Source of the DNA: a virus
Virus record (IMG/VR): IMGVR_UViG_3300032282_005448
Coordinates: 1 to 24,562 of that record
DNA: 24,562 bases
Reading direction: 5' to 3' (one strand)
The translations under genes were made by a program, and so were the position numbers. The first letter of the stretch is position 1. Each line of letters opens with the position of its first letter. The notes under the pieces are model-generated. The model was not told the origin of the DNA. It worked only from the letters and a program-made list of their open reading frames with translations, and searched no databases. This document shows, in pieces, positions 2-24,167 of the stretch.

Positions 2-652
2 TTAGCTATAACACAACAAAAAAGAAACAAAAAAACTAGAAAGAAACAACAAGTAGAGTTTTTTGACCACTTTGACTCTGAGGTTGTGGCTAACGACGTT
101 GAAACAGCTGGCCATGAAGCAACCGCCGCGGAAGAGCGTAACGCTTTTCCTTACAGAGCTGTTGTAGAAGTGTTAGGTGATCCTGACTTACGCCCAGATA
201 TGCCTGTATTTTTAGAAGGTGTAGGGCAAGTGTATTCAGGGTATTGGACCATACTCCAAACAGAGCATAAAATTATTGAAGAAGAACGTAACCGTCAACG
301 CTACACAACTATTTTGACTGTTGGTGTAGACTCTTTAGGAACAGCTAATACTTGGAGCGATAACAAAACTATTGTTGCGCCAGATTATGCCCCTAAAAGA
401 ACAATTGTTCCAAACAAAAAGCAAACAGTAGTTGTACCTAAGACGGGATTAAATATGTCGTCAAAGGCGCTTACCCCGCAATCAAAAGGCAGTTTTGGTT
501 CTTTAAACAACAGAGCCAAGCCTGTAACTAATCGGTCTCAAGAAACCCCTAAATGGAAAAGCCAGACTGCTTCTTTAAATAACATAATTACAGAGCCTAA
601 TAAAAGCCCAGTGATTTTAAACAGAATATTAAAACAGGCAGGTGCTAGATGA
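2..652 (+). CDS. Baseplate hub protein, gpD/gp27-like, C-terminal part (5' truncated by window edge)
   Basis: The reading frame is open from base 2 with no stop, so the gene almost certainly begins before the window; the in-frame GTG at 86 is probably internal. The visible 216 residues start with a Lys/Gln-rich stretch and continue into a segment with the motif GDPDLRPDMPVFLEGVG followed by YSGYWTILQTEHKI. This resembles the last beta domain of phage late-control D/VgrG-like hub proteins. The C-terminal ~80 residues are low-complexity, rich in Lys, Asn and Thr. The hub forms the ring on which the spike sits, and the next gene, overlapping by 4 bp (ATGA), is a gp5-like spike protein, which supports the call. 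Family assignment is by motif and neighbourhood only. Confidence 0.7.
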   Translation, partial: LAITQQKRNKKTRKKQQVEFFDHFDSEVVANDVETAGHEATAAEERNAFPYRAVVEVLGDPDLRPDMPVFLEGVGQVYSGYWTILQTEHKIIEEERNRQRYTTILTVGVDSLGTANTWSDNKTIVAPDYAPKRTIVPNKKQTVVVPKTGLNMSSKALTPQSKGSFGSLNNRAKPVTNRSQETPKWKSQTASLNNIITEPNKSPVILNRILKQAGAR

Positions 653-1347
653 GTTTTGATAAACGCTTCTATGGGATTTACAGCGCAGTTATTGCTGACG
701 CCGAAGACCCAGAGGATCTAGGACGCGTTAAGCTTATTATTCCACAAGTGCTTGGAAATAATATTACTGAGTGGTGTTATGGAACCGGCGGAGTTGCGGT
801 GTCTAATGTTAACTCTCCGTATGGAACCTTTATTACCACCGCTACTCAAACCGTTTCTGGGGCCAACACTGCAACTCTTGTTTCTAGCTGGCAAGACGAA
901 GATGTTAACAAAATGTACTCATCAGGTACAAGAATATACGCGGAGGAGACCGGCGACTACCTAATTGTTTGGTCAGCCATGCTTAATAAATCTAATGCGA
1001 GCAACGCTGAAGTAGATATTTGGGTAAGAGTAAACGGGCAAAACTTAGCAAACTCAAACACAAGAGGCCATTTATTCGGAAGTGACGCTGAAACAGTTTT
1101 GACAGATTCTTCAATTGTAGACTTGAAAGCCGGAGAATATTTTGAATTTGTATTCTCTTCTGCTGATGCAAACGTAAAAATACAATACTATGGGACATCT
1201 TCAAGCCCAACACGTCCAGCGGTTCCAGGGGTTATTGCCACAGCAAACTTAATAGGAAAGTGGCGACCTCAACCTGGAACAAAAGCTTGGGCTATGTTTG
1301 AAGCCGGGGACCCTAACTTTCCAGTATGGATGGGAGCGCTATCATGA
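649..1347 (+). CDS. Baseplate spike protein, gp5/gpV-like OB fold with inserted jelly-roll-like domain
   Basis: Residues 1-50 (YGIYSAVIADAEDPEDLGRV, then KLIIPQVLG) match the first strands of the gp5/VgrG-type OB fold. Residues 204-232, with QPGTKAWAMFEAGDPNFPVW, match its last strands. Between them, about residues 57-203 form a separate beta-rich unit (EETGDYLIVWSAML, VDIWVRVNGQNL, DLKAGEYFEFVF) that resembles a C1q/TNF-like jelly roll. The protein would sit at the tip of the tail tube inside the baseplate; the insert could project outward as a binding or trimerisation head (inference). No lysozyme domain or triple-helix repeat is visible. The start overlaps the hub gene by 4 bp. Confidence 0.8.
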   Translation: MSFDKRFYGIYSAVIADAEDPEDLGRVKLIIPQVLGNNITEWCYGTGGVAVSNVNSPYGTFITTATQTVSGANTATLVSSWQDEDVNKMYSSGTRIYAEETGDYLIVWSAMLNKSNASNAEVDIWVRVNGQNLANSNTRGHLFGSDAETVLTDSSIVDLKAGEYFEFVFSSADANVKIQYYGTSSSPTRPAVPGVIATANLIGKWRPQPGTKAWAMFEAGDPNFPVWMGALS

Positions 1348-1751
1348 CAGAAAGAGCAATGTCTCTTCCGTTTTCGTTTGATTCTTCTGGGTCGGTCTCT
1401 TATACAAGCGACGAAAAGAAGATTTGGCAGGACCGGGTAGTTCTAGTTGTGATGACTAGGCTTAACGAGCGCCTAATGAGGCCTACTTTTGGAAGCGAGT
1501 CTTCCAACTCTTTATTTGAAAACGCAAGTTCAGCTAGTGGTCTTTTAAAAGACACAATTGCTACAGCTTTTTCCAATTGGCTAAAGGATCTAGTTCTGAC
1601 GGATGTAGCCGTGTATACCGATGCAGCTGACGGGTACCTAGTAGCGGAGATTTTCTACAGGTATAACCCAATTGAGAATGAACAAAGTGTAAAGATAAAA
1701 ACCGCTATCCTTAGCCGTACAGGCGAAGTAATTCTGGAGGTACAACAATAA
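1344..1751 (+). CDS. Baseplate wedge protein, gp25/GpW-like
   Basis: A 135-residue protein from the ATG at 1344, which overlaps the spike stop codon as ATGA; an upstream in-frame ATG at 1326 lies deeper in the spike gene and is less likely. The sequence follows the gp25-like pattern: an N-terminal segment LPFSFDSSGSVSYTSDEKKI, then VLVVMTRLNERLMRPTFGS (the conserved T/RxGER-like turn), and a C-terminal beta part ending in ILEVQQ. In T4-type and P2-type phages this small protein links baseplate wedges to the sheath. It sits in the usual order before the J/gp6-like gene. Confidence 0.85.
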   Translation: MTERAMSLPFSFDSSGSVSYTSDEKKIWQDRVVLVVMTRLNERLMRPTFGSESSNSLFENASSASGLLKDTIATAFSNWLKDLVLTDVAVYTDAADGYLVAEIFYRYNPIENEQSVKIKTAILSRTGEVILEVQQ

Positions 1752-3466
1752 TGGCCAATAACTACATCCCACAGGTGGATTACACCTCAAGAGATTACGC
1801 CTCTATCCGTGAGGACTTAATTGACCTTATTCCGGAATACGCACCACTTTGGACTAACCGCGATCCAGCAGACTTTGGCATGACCATTCTTGAGACTTTT
1901 TCCTATATGGGCGACATCCTTAATTACTATATTGATAAGTCCGCTAACGAAGCTTTTATTTCTACAGCTAGCCAGCGAGATAACGTGCTTCAACTTGCAA
2001 AACTTCTGGGTTACAAACCAACGGAAAGTACAGCGTCCACTGTTACTGTAACTTTTACTAATACAACCGGGTCATCAATTACTGTCCCAGCTTTAACTCA
2101 AGTTGCAACCTCTACAATTTCCAACGCTTCTAATAACCAAATTGTTTTTGAAACCAACACCGCTGTCACTGTTCCGTCTGGAAGCACCAGCACTACTGTT
2201 TTGGCAACTCAAGGAACAACAATTACCTCAGAAGATATTGGTCAATCTGACGGAACTGTGAACCAAACATTTCAACTCTCTGGCTCACCTGTAATTACCG
2301 GAAGTATTTCTTTACTTGTAGGGTCTATTAATTACACTGAAGTTCCTTATCTAATTGACTACAACAGTTACGATCCTGTTTTTTCAACGTACACCAACGC
2401 AGCCGGTACTACTTTTGTAGTATTTGGAGACAACATTAGTGGGCGCGTACCGCCTAACAACGCCCAAATCTATGCAACATACAGAGTTGGCGGAGGAGCT
2501 GAAGGTAACGTTGCAGCTAACACTATCAAATACATTATTACAAATGCTGTTTCTGGTTTATCTGTTTTGAACAAATATGTGTCAGGATCAAACGACGGTT
2601 CTGCTTTAGGAGGCGCTGACCCGGAGTCAACAGACTCTATTCGTATTAACGCCCCTTTAAGCGTTCGTTCCCTAAACAGGGCGGTGTCATTATCAGATTA
2701 CTCTGCGTTAGTTGTGCAAGTAAGCGGTGTCGCTAAAGCAATTGCTATTGCAGACATCTATACAAGTGTTACGGTTTTCTTTGCCCCTTACGGAGATAAA
2801 GGTGTTCAAACTGACGGAGTAACCCCTTCTACAGTTTTTAATTCTCTTAAAACAACAGTTCAAGATTATCTTGTAGATAAAATCCCCGCTAACACAACCG
2901 TTACTTTCCAACCACCAAGTTATGTACCGGTATTAATTGACGCGTCTATTACGTGTTTACCACAGTATAAGCAAAGTTTAATAGAAGCAGATGTCAACTC
3001 AATTATTACAGAGCTATTAGCTTTTGATAACGTAGCATTTGCTGACCGAATTACACTACAAGATGTACTTGGTGCAATTGCCTCAGTGCCTGGCGTGGCT
3101 TATTCTCAAATTACAAAACTTGTTCGTCAAGACCAAGACATTACAAAAACTATTACAAACAAAGTTTTAACGTCAAACGTAGCAACTATTACTGTCGGGT
3201 CTAGCCACGGGTTTACTGTTGGACAAACCATTAGAGTGGCTGACGTAGATAGCACGTTTAACGGCACTTATGTTGTTACCGCAACAGCTTCAACAACAAT
3301 TTCATATGTTTGCATTGCTACAAACGTTGTGTCAACAGCTGTTACGGGAACCGCAAACGCCACTGCTTTAACTGTTGGAGATATTGTTTGCCAAACAGAT
3401 GAAATCCCAGAAACAGATTACACAACTGATGTAAAGCTTACATTAACCGGGGGTATCCTTAGCTAA
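1751..3466 (+). CDS. Baseplate wedge protein, baseplate J/gp6-like
   Basis: 571 residues. The N-terminus (YTSRDYASIREDLIDLIPEY, DPADFGMTILETFSYMGD, and ASQRDNVLQLAKLLGYKP) is typical of baseplate J/gp6-like wedge proteins. The middle contains the J-type ADPESTDSIRINAPLSVRSL followed by an SLSDY motif. Around residues 470-538 there is an extra beta module (LTSNVATITVGSSHGFTVGQ ... FNGTYVV) that is also found twice in the next protein. The protein forms the outer wedge of the baseplate and transmits the contraction signal. Overlap with the upstream gene is one base (TAATG), so translation is probably coupled. Confidence 0.88.
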   Translation: MANNYIPQVDYTSRDYASIREDLIDLIPEYAPLWTNRDPADFGMTILETFSYMGDILNYYIDKSANEAFISTASQRDNVLQLAKLLGYKPTESTASTVTVTFTNTTGSSITVPALTQVATSTISNASNNQIVFETNTAVTVPSGSTSTTVLATQGTTITSEDIGQSDGTVNQTFQLSGSPVITGSISLLVGSINYTEVPYLIDYNSYDPVFSTYTNAAGTTFVVFGDNISGRVPPNNAQIYATYRVGGGAEGNVAANTIKYIITNAVSGLSVLNKYVSGSNDGSALGGADPESTDSIRINAPLSVRSLNRAVSLSDYSALVVQVSGVAKAIAIADIYTSVTVFFAPYGDKGVQTDGVTPSTVFNSLKTTVQDYLVDKIPANTTVTFQPPSYVPVLIDASITCLPQYKQSLIEADVNSIITELLAFDNVAFADRITLQDVLGAIASVPGVAYSQITKLVRQDQDITKTITNKVLTSNVATITVGSSHGFTVGQTIRVADVDSTFNGTYVVTATASTTISYVCIATNVVSTAVTGTANATALTVGDIVCQTDEIPETDYTTDVKLTLTGGILS

Positions 3467-6042
3467 TGTCACGTTACGGTATTGATTACTACGGGTTAAG
3501 TTATTACGGCTCTTCTGCGGCAGTAAACTACTTAGCCGGCTCTTTCACCGCGCAATCTCGTGGATACGGATCTATCCGAGTAAAGTGGACAAGTCCAAGT
3601 GGTAAATGGTCAACCATACGTTTAGTTCGTAATTCTTATGGCTACCCTGTAAATGCGTACGATGGTGACATTCTTGTTAATGTTGAAAGAGAAAACGACC
3701 CAACGCTCTATAACGACACAACAAATTTAGCAAAAGGCGCTTTTTATTACTATTCCCTTTTTGTAGATGACACGATTACATATAATTGGATCCGTTCTGG
3801 AAACATTACAGGCGTGTCTGTTAAAGACTATAACTATGGTAATAAGCTGTATGAATACTTACCTGAAATCTACAAAATTAAACAACCTTACATTGCAACC
3901 GCAGACTGGGACAACGAAAATTTATCAAATTTTATGCATCTATTTGGGTTTCAACTTGATTACGCTCAAACGGTAACAAGTCTTTTAGTAGAACGTTACA
4001 ATTTGGAAAAAGTTGGTGGAACGCTGTTGCCGTCACTTCTTCAACAGTTTGGTCTTACATATGAACCTGAAATTGGGTACCAACAATCTAGAATTCTTGT
4101 GCGTGACGCGGTACAGATTGGTAAAAAAAAGGGAAGCTCTCAAGGTCTTCGTGAGTTTATGAAAGCTTTCACCGGGTATGCAATCCCAGAACCAATTTCT
4201 GGTACCCCAAACCCAAGCATTAGCGGTATTACAATGGGTCACAACTTAATGTTGGATTACAACGATTCATCATTTGAAGAGTCATTGGGACATTGGTCTT
4301 CCTCTGACGCAACAGCCACAGCTGCCGCTTTACAAGTTAAAAATATTACACGTGTGTCTTTAACTACTAACGTAGTGCAATTAACTATTGGATCTCACAC
4401 ATACCAAGTTGGAAATAAAATTAATACAGCGGGGTTTGCTCAACCCTTGTTTAATACGGTTGGCACCCCTAAGACTATTACAGCAATTACTTCAACATCT
4501 GTTTCTTTTGCGTTAACCGCAAGCGATATTGCTGAACTAGATTCCTACAATAAAGGAACAGCTTCTTATCCTAAACTAACGCCTTACCCAACACCATGGG
4601 CTGAGTCATCAGCTCTTGTTCTTTATCCAAACAAGCAAAATGGGATTTTGTCTGTAAAAAATGCAACTGGGTCAGCCGCAACAATTAAAATTGAATGCGG
4701 TTTAAATAGCCCTGTTCTTAAAGGTGTCCCGGTAACGGCTGGTAGCAGCTATGTATTTAGCGTGTACTCCGCAGCTGGTACGACGCTTCGCGGTATCGTT
4801 TTAAAAATACGTTGGTATGAACGCCTAGGTACATTTATTTCAGAAACAACAGGAAGTTCTGTAAACAACGCAGTAGGATCTTTTGCAGCACGACCAACAG
4901 TAACTGGAACCGCTCCTTCCGGCGCTTATTACGCAGTTCCTGTTATTACTATTGTTTCAGCTGCTGCATCAGCATCAAATGAGTACCATTATTTTGATTG
5001 TGCTCAATTTGAACAAGCATCCTCTGTTACATCTTTTGATGAAGCACGTCAGATCCACATGACACTTAAAGCAACAAGAATTAATGAGTTAAAAAACCCA
5101 CATTTTGCTTTAATCAGTGGAACTATATCTGCTCCTGTAGTAACACCTTGGTCAGTATCTGGAAGCTCTACCACAAAAGCAATTGACTTAAACTCCGCTG
5201 AACCTGGTGCGGAAATATGGTCACTTGCTTTTAAAAGCCTTACTTCAAATGTAGCTAGATTAGAGACTACTTACACCCACAATTACCGTGTGGGAGATAT
5301 TGTTTATATTTATGGTGTTGGAGCGCCGTTTGACGGCCTCCGCACTATTACGGCTGTGGGAATCGACACAGCAAATGATTTTAAATCTTATTTTCAATTT
5401 GCTTTAACTAATGCAAACATAACAAGAACCGCTGCGACAGGTACTTCTTGGGTCTCTGGAAACGCTCTTAAACTAACAGCGACTGCTGGTGGAACGGTAA
5501 ACGTTAAATCATGGGATGGCTCAACAACCTCACAGCTTATGCCTATACATTATCCAAGCACTAACTACACTTTTAGCTTACAGCTACAAAAATATGAATA
5601 TGTTTCAGGAGATGAACTAGTTACTCCTTACATATCTTGGTATGACAACACCAACACCTTAATAAGCACGGTCACAGGGGAAACAAAAAACGTTACTTCT
5701 TTTGAAACAAGTTGGGATACCGCTTACGTTACAGGTGTTGCGCCATCAAACGCTTACTCGGCAGTAGTTGGTATTAACTGGGTGGCTGTAAACACTCACA
5801 TCTTGTGGCTTGACTCTGCTCTGTTTGAACACAGTTCCGCCGTTTCAACTTTCTTTGATGGAAGCACTGGACCAGCAACATCTAACGATCTTTTTTGGGA
5901 GGGCGGAGCAACTAATGCGGCCCGTAGCCATCTCTATAAAAACCGTTTTGCTATTCAAACGCGGCTTAGCGACTATGCACTTAAAAACCAATTAAATGCA
6001 GGAAGCACAGTAGCAATTTACTTAGCACAACCTAAAACGTAG
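3466..6042 (+). CDS. Large tail protein: gpI-like domain plus tandem carbohydrate-binding-like domains
   Basis: 858 residues. About 20-120 resembles an Fn3-type fold (IRVKWTSPSGKWSTIRLVRN). About 125-240 is a P2 gpI-like tail domain (YLPEIYKIKQPY, LLPSLLQQFGLTYEPEIGYQ, KKGSSQGLREFMKAFTGY). Two units follow, about 258-530 and 535-800, each starting like a CBM4/9-type jelly roll (NLMLDYNDSSFEESLGHW in the first, NELKNPHFALISG in the second) and each ending DxAxFE. Each unit holds a short nested beta module. The C-terminus (FFDGSTGP, FWEGG) is common in tail adhesins. It probably joins baseplate to fibres and may bind cell-surface sugars (inference). Confidence 0.78.
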   Translation: MSRYGIDYYGLSYYGSSAAVNYLAGSFTAQSRGYGSIRVKWTSPSGKWSTIRLVRNSYGYPVNAYDGDILVNVERENDPTLYNDTTNLAKGAFYYYSLFVDDTITYNWIRSGNITGVSVKDYNYGNKLYEYLPEIYKIKQPYIATADWDNENLSNFMHLFGFQLDYAQTVTSLLVERYNLEKVGGTLLPSLLQQFGLTYEPEIGYQQSRILVRDAVQIGKKKGSSQGLREFMKAFTGYAIPEPISGTPNPSISGITMGHNLMLDYNDSSFEESLGHWSSSDATATAAALQVKNITRVSLTTNVVQLTIGSHTYQVGNKINTAGFAQPLFNTVGTPKTITAITSTSVSFALTASDIAELDSYNKGTASYPKLTPYPTPWAESSALVLYPNKQNGILSVKNATGSAATIKIECGLNSPVLKGVPVTAGSSYVFSVYSAAGTTLRGIVLKIRWYERLGTFISETTGSSVNNAVGSFAARPTVTGTAPSGAYYAVPVITIVSAAASASNEYHYFDCAQFEQASSVTSFDEARQIHMTLKATRINELKNPHFALISGTISAPVVTPWSVSGSSTTKAIDLNSAEPGAEIWSLAFKSLTSNVARLETTYTHNYRVGDIVYIYGVGAPFDGLRTITAVGIDTANDFKSYFQFALTNANITRTAATGTSWVSGNALKLTATAGGTVNVKSWDGSTTSQLMPIHYPSTNYTFSLQLQKYEYVSGDELVTPYISWYDNTNTLISTVTGETKNVTSFETSWDTAYVTGVAPSNAYSAVVGINWVAVNTHILWLDSALFEHSSAVSTFFDGSTGPATSNDLFWEGGATNAARSHLYKNRFAIQTRLSDYALKNQLNAGSTVAIYLAQPKT

Positions 6043-23727: not shown

Positions 23728-23739
23728 TAGACATGTCTA
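23728..23739. repeat. 12-bp perfect palindrome TAGACATGTCTA
   Basis: A self-complementary 12-mer in the gap between the Hsp20 gene and the tRNA. A TAGACA repeat at 23717-23722 lies 17 nt before TAAACT at 23740-23745, so the palindrome would fall between -35 and -10 of a possible promoter. An operator is possible; it is not proven. Confidence 0.4.
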
Positions 23740-23752
23740 TAAACTATCCTCG

Positions 23753-23772
23753 CGTATCTTTAATTAGATACG
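23753..23772. repeat. 7-bp inverted repeat CGTATCT-N6-AGATACG
   Basis: A perfect hairpin with loop ttaatt, 41 nt before the tRNA. No T-run follows on the + strand, so it is not a standard terminator. It could be a processing signal or an operator. Confidence 0.4.
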
Positions 23773-23813
23773 TAAGCGGACCTGAGCATTGTCCATGTAA
23801 ACGGCTCATTTTT

Positions 23814-23886
23814 TGCCCCATAGCTCAGCCGGCAGAGCACGCGACTGTTAATCGCGTTGTCCCTGGTTCGATCCCAGGTGGGGCAG
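23814..23886 (+). tRNA. tRNA-Asn (anticodon GTT)
   Basis: A 73-nt cloverleaf. Acceptor TGCCCCA pairs with TGGGGCA (7 bp), the D stem is GCTC/GAGC, the anticodon stem CGCGA/TCGCG holds loop CTGTTAA with anticodon GTT, the variable loop is TTGTC, and the T stem CCTGG/CCAGG holds TTCGATC. The discriminator base is G. The 3' CCA is not encoded. It may supplement the host Asn-tRNA pool for AAC/AAT codons. Confidence 0.95.
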
Positions 23887-23930
23887 CTTATGTGATAGTC
23901 TTGATACGTCGCGACGAGACGGGAGACTAC

Positions 23931-24167
23931 GTGCTAGAGATACTTAAAAAACACATAGAAACAGCTTCAGATGGTTGCTCTGTGCAAGATTGGATTTCCA
24001 CTTTAGACGTTGCAGAACAAAAAGCTTTTGATGATATTTGCGAACACAGTGAAAATATAAATGTTACTAGTTTATACAAAGAAATATCTGCAACAGACCC
24101 ACTTCCATTTAAAATAACGGCGTTTCGCTCACACTTAAGGAGCTACTGCACGTGTCCAAAAAATTAA
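23931..24167 (+). CDS. Unknown small protein downstream of the tRNA
   Basis: 78 residues from a GTG at 23931 with GGGAG 5 nt upstream. The frame is open further upstream, but that part runs through the tRNA gene and cannot be the real N-terminus; a GTG at 23892 is the only other late start. The protein is helical, charged and ends FRSHLRSYCTCPKN, with a Cys-x-Cys pair that might bind metal. No family recognised. The next gene overlaps its end by 16 bp. Confidence 0.6.
   Translation: MLEILKKHIETASDGCSVQDWISTLDVAEQKAFDDICEHSENINVTSLYKEISATDPLPFKITAFRSHLRSYCTCPKN

Follow-up and report, generated by a model that had tools for sequence, protein, structure and literature searches.

A phage baseplate OB-fold protein with a predicted C1q/TNF-like jelly roll in an exchangeable internal loop

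The central spikes of contractile phages and injection systems are usually pictured as an OB-fold base that ends in a C-terminal needle or a PAAR tip. T4 gp5, P2 gpV and VgrG carry lysozyme and/or a C-terminal β-helix needle, and their needles grow from the C-terminus end of the OB barrel. Adhesion-type domains have been described within a conserved tail-tip core protein, the evolved Dit proteins of siphophages (PMC10688798, PMC6669499), and the tail fibres of eCIS carry C1q domains (PMC12923769). Here we describe an OB spike variant with a probable exchangeable tip borne on a loop. Its fold and modularity are well supported, and we infer its oligomeric state, position and function.

The DNA analysed was the IMG/VR virus record IMGVR_UViG_3300032282_005448, positions 1-24,562 (24,562 nucleotides, hereafter the window), which derives from a virus of bacteria. 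The spike gene sits in a baseplate operon in the order hub, spike, gp25, gp6/J and gp7/I-like, with all five genes on the + strand. The start of the contig cuts the first gene (2-652), which encodes the C-terminal part of a gp27/GPD-like hub protein (phrog_52, E=1.8e-4); the full-length syntenic hub gene in the relative L048 matched both Phage_GPD (8e-7) and phrog_52 (3e-15). The second gene (649-1347) encodes the 232 aa OB-fold spike protein with the jelly roll inside, as delineated from the ORF, profiles and a structural model. Its end is overlapped by the start of the gene for a gp25-like baseplate wedge protein (1326-1751; phrog_43, 3.5e-12; GPW_gp25, 3.4e-5, under the curated cut-off). 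A gp6/J-like baseplate wedge protein (1751-3466; Baseplate_J, 2e-10; phrog_219, 2.7e-42) and an 858 aa gpI/gp7-like tail protein (3466-6042; Tail_P2_I, 5.4e-4, slightly under the cut-off) follow. Gene order around the spike was identical in the four loci that were fully laid out, two with a jelly roll (L048, L036), one with an empty loop (L013) and one with a His-rich insert (L162). The order was putative tape measure, ~370 aa protein, Phage_tail_X-like protein, GPD-like hub, spike, gp25, J and gpI-like protein. The position of the spike gene between a GPD/gp27-like hub and gp25 is the gp5/VgrG slot and is conserved.

Two side observations were made elsewhere in the window. Within the gpI/gp7-like protein, the stretch at 5110-5809 (about residues 548-781) had no blastn counterpart in L171, the nearest relative, and may be another exchanged domain. 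A tRNA-Asn (GTT) lies at 23814-23887 (+) within a listed ORF (23733-24167), which is probably spurious where the tRNA overlaps it.

The OB domain of the spike protein is complete and broken at a single point, with seamless flanks. Phage_base_V (PF04717) matched the 232 aa protein with an E-value of 2.5e-8 and 34.6 bits against a curated cut-off of 23.8, the best stretch being residues 11-44, and it matched 64 of 64 relatives. The family phrog_430, "baseplate hub subunit and tail lysozyme", was matched by 30 family members, and profile searches matched solved VgrG/gp5 and central-spike chains. An HMM was built from 19 distinct relatives without an insert (76-83 aa) and used with the search space set to 1000. 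This HMM aligned to the window protein in two pieces, model positions 1-49 with residues 1-49 (i-E 1.8e-18) and model positions 51-78 with residues 204-231 (i-E 5e-9). The N-terminal half (residues 1-49, 649-795) holds strands at 11-17, 27-30 and 43-45 according to the HMM, Phage_base_V and DSSP on the model, and the C-terminal half (residues 204-232, 1258-1344) holds strands at 212-217 and 225-231 according to the HMM and the model. Given 64 aligned family members, AlphaFold2 returned a two-domain chain with a mean pLDDT of 93.3 and a pTM of 0.85. The run without an alignment was uninformative (pLDDT 35), a difference accounted for by alignment depth.

The initial annotation, made from the DNA letters, had proposed an OB fold in two halves around a separate insert of ~145 residues. 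The insertless HMM and the model agree on the two halves, with boundaries within a few residues, and the insert is close to the proposed size at 154 aa (residues 50-203). Spike genes that lack the insert were found in related phages, as the same 76-83 aa proteins. The model did not show one continuous fold, nor is the insert an ordinary gp5 OB loop: the β3-β4 loop of solved spikes has only 7-11 residues (8kea, 7aef), and ordinary OB-loop variation was ruled out as its source on this ground.

Structural comparison of the model identifies the insert as a C1q/TNF/BclA-like jelly roll by fold. With its linkers it spans residues 50-203 (796-1257), as defined by Foldseek, stand-alone homologues and a profile; the alignment profile A2 matched 817-1260 of the window, and the strands in the AlphaFold2 model lie between residues 58 and 206, the last one running to about residue 206. 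The best Foldseek matches in the PDB included Bacillus BxpB/ExsFA (E 1.9e-7), TNF-family ligands and BclA (~1e-7 to 1e-6), with target-normalised TM scores of about 0.6-0.7. The knob/petal of the phi812 central spike ranked fifth (PDB 9eul, E 4.8e-7, TMq 0.49), and a domain of the short tail fibre of cyanophage A-1(L) ranked seventh (8ke9). At the sequence level, a Pfam search of the window protein gave no match to the C1q, TNF or BclA families, and among 40 contigs none of C1q, TNF or BclA_C was found above the Pfam cut-off. Sub-threshold BclA_C matches were obtained for 29 of 64 relatives at E<=0.1 (best E 7.5e-8), and TNF matches for 3 of 64. Together with the Foldseek result, these matches bear out the earlier proposal of a separate C1q/TNF-like jelly roll between the OB halves. 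When the window protein by itself was compared with the sequences of solved structures, only chance matches came back; weak matches to neuroplastin, adenovirus fibre and PLK4, and a match to Glyco_hydro_20 (E 0.097), were likewise taken as chance.

The jelly roll is also found outside the OB context. Residues 56-203 alone matched proteins of cultured and environmental phages, and the domain forms the C-terminal residues 332-475 of a 478 aa protein of Limnohabitans phage DC31 (L031). Viral proteins in BFVD matched it over about 150-160 residues, and several of these are named as C1q, collagen-repeat, S74-peptidase or side tail fibre proteins. Among relatives, the median pairwise dN/dS of the insert was 0.13 (65 pairs, with sequences in common between them), indicating purifying selection and hence a real, maintained coding domain; at this median there was no sign of diversifying selection.

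The β3-β4 loop of the OB fold is an insertion hotspot. IMG/VR was scanned for relatives, of which one scan returned 378; the best 80 were fetched and nearly all bear the jelly roll. Across all fetched loci, in a survey that in places includes near-copies and one contig fetched twice, the loop between the OB halves was 2-8 (no insert), 10-24, 43-50, 69-83, 105-132 or 145-183 (jelly roll) residues long. Inserts of 43-132 residues are His-rich, contain no jelly roll and are non-homologous to it, and they occupy the identical OB loop; their bearers are L006, L007, L121-L122 and, in part, L131-L177. Their layout is symmetrical, with an outward HxxH, a Gly/Ser-rich turn, an invariant HxH and a returning HTxH. 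Histidine accounts for 10.5% of residues in the His-rich insert and for 2.6% in the OB part. HxH occurred 43 times compared to a mean of 20.4 and a maximum of 36 in 1000 shuffles, counts that come from related sequences and give no clean probability. HxH metal sites occur in the trimeric fibre and spike tips of T4 gp37 and P2 gpV. By analogy, the His-rich insert may form an out-and-back, metal-pinned arm; it has a conserved HxH in common with the gp37 and gpV needles, and a search for sequence kinship with solved needles found none.

Relatedness of the OB part and of the insert is only loosely coupled (r = 0.33 over 55 distinct proteins). The inserts of L037 and L053 are 85% identical and their OB parts 47%, and the inserts of L004 and L080 are 47% identical and their OB parts 93%. 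This decoupling indicates that the jelly roll is transferred as a unit of its own. L011, without an insert, and L004, with one, have near-identical OB parts, and both flanks share about 82% DNA identity. Each short loop of the insertless proteins looks like one end of the loop that holds the insert in L004, GGGLATS (L011) resembling one end and ISPN (L012) the other, as if insert deletion had left them behind. On a backbone tree of the gp6/J protein (119 rows, built by a quick method and with some long branches meeting), the three insert states require at least 16 changes. The nearest relative of the window on this tree, L170, has a J protein that is 94% identical and carries a His-rich insert. 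As far as position 600 the window and L170 share about 78-93% DNA identity, followed by 38-67% at 601-1320 and 75-100% beyond; since the divergence is confined to about 600-1320, the whole spike gene was replaced in this pair.

That the presence of the insert differs among close relatives could also mean that it is a dispensable hitch-hiker in a permissive loop. We regard this as very improbable, given its low dN/dS, its occurrence in about 80 fetched loci (the best 80 of 378) and the use of the same spot, in other phages, by a His-rich insert that is not homologous to it and whose histidines are conserved.

The spike chain stops right after the last OB strand and has no C-terminal needle. PAAR, Tox-PAAR and Gp5_C were detected in 0 of 40 contigs (the window and 39 relatives, possibly partial), and control genomes were positive. 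The needle that the initial annotation had placed near the inserted head is thus not borne out, although partial contigs may conceal a separate tip protein. Among cultured phages, those with the J protein closest to the window's infect Streptomyces (33-35% identity). Three of these, LuckySocke, BRock and pSt2308 (L201, L202, L203), have a syntenic OB protein with ~125 extra C-terminal residues that have no Pfam match, and the β3-β4 loop, read in LuckySocke and BRock, is short. This protein, found in the same gene order, hints weakly that the window group may infect Actinobacteria. The C-terminal extension of the Streptomyces phages offers a different solution at the barrel end where the β3-β4 loop opens.

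With no needle or PAAR found in the 40 contigs and a very short OB domain, the protein might be another baseplate or tail-tip component rather than the central spike, with its insert serving as a side adhesin. This is quite unlikely: the gene occupies the conserved gp5/VgrG slot between the GPD/gp27-like hub and gp25, and the matches to phrog_430 and to solved VgrG/gp5 and central-spike chains also argue against it.

The split OB domain, the jelly-roll fold, the module exchange, the missing C-terminal needle and the synteny are all computational results, and alongside them we propose how the protein may work. The gene product would form the base of the central spike in a phage with a contractile tail, as a pared-down OB domain of the gp5/VgrG type that is presumably trimeric beneath the gp27-like hub. 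Its β3-β4 connection would carry a complete C1q/TNF-like jelly roll. Because OB strands 4 and 5 pair as a hairpin, the β3-β4 connection opens at the C-terminus end of the barrel. This would put the insert on the three-fold axis at the distal end, facing the cell, where a blunt axial trimeric knob would replace the needle. The two termini of the C1q/TNF fold lie close together, which would allow insertion into a loop without disturbing the host fold. Both OB spikes and C1q/TNF/BclA folds are usually trimers, so one three-fold axis could serve both. The loop would act as a socket that is empty or filled by a His-rich out-and-back arm or by one of several jelly-roll subtypes, exchanged by recombination. 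We consider it probable that the protein serves as the OB base of a spike and bears, on its distal loop, a trimeric head that can be exchanged. The likeliest job of this head is to touch the cell surface on the axis of the tail, with a second role in the stability of the spike trimer. The exchange pattern favours surface contact, as does the finding of this domain in proteins of the fibre type. Since insertless relatives exist, the head is not essential for assembly; those relatives may use other adhesins. That the insert shows no sign of diversifying selection also counts against the proposal.

Trimer stabilisation is the main rival to surface contact. The jelly roll could be purely structural, trimerising or capping three small OB domains that lack a β-helix needle and binding nothing on the host. 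C1q/TNF/BclA folds are established trimers, the spike protein has no other evident trimerising part and the insert is under purifying selection, all of which would suit such a role. The insertless relatives of 76-80 aa belong to the same lineages, indicating that the OB domain manages without the jelly roll, and the frequent swaps of divergent subtypes suit a binding module better. We therefore regard a purely structural role as unlikely, although less so than the two alternatives above.

Under the proposal of an exchangeable surface-contacting head, an internal loop of the OB fold appears to supply the tip. More broadly, and tentatively, the β3-β4 loop could be a dedicated axial tip-exchange socket in many uncultured contractile phages, left bare or fitted with a metal-pinned arm or a C1q-like receptor-binding knob. 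If so, the central spike, besides the peripheral fibres, would take part in host contact. The natural forms with no insert, a His-rich arm or a jelly roll occur in closely related backgrounds, and comparing them offers a way to test what the axial tip does in adsorption and envelope penetration.

The best viral match to the whole chain is A0A6J7WM73 of an uncultured Caudovirales phage in BFVD (235 aa, whole-chain TM 0.79/0.78, 29% identity). It is annotated merely as "Gp5/Type VI secretion system Vgr protein OB-fold domain-containing protein", with the inserted domain unmentioned, and we found no description of a split-OB/jelly-roll spike, including the insert of A0A6J7WM73, in the open-licence literature. 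In T4 gp5, P2 gpV and VgrG the OB domain adjoins the gp27/GPD hub, as it does here. Unlike in those proteins, the extra domain of the window spike is internal and the OB fold is terminal, and there is neither lysozyme nor a β-helix needle. The OB proteins of LuckySocke, BRock and pSt2308 are syntenic and likewise lack a recognised needle; they have a C-terminal extension instead. The knob and petal of the central spike of Staphylococcus phage phi812 (9eul) match the insert in fold and belong to a contractile phage; no paper on this structure was found in the open-licence literature. The C1q-like heads of eCIS are also part of contractile systems but sit on peripheral fibres, whereas that of the window lies in the OB domain of the spike. 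The nearest conceptual precedent is the evolved Dit, which is alike in its working but not in membership: its core is the siphophage Dit, whereas the core described here is a Phage_base_V OB protein encoded in a gp25/J baseplate operon.
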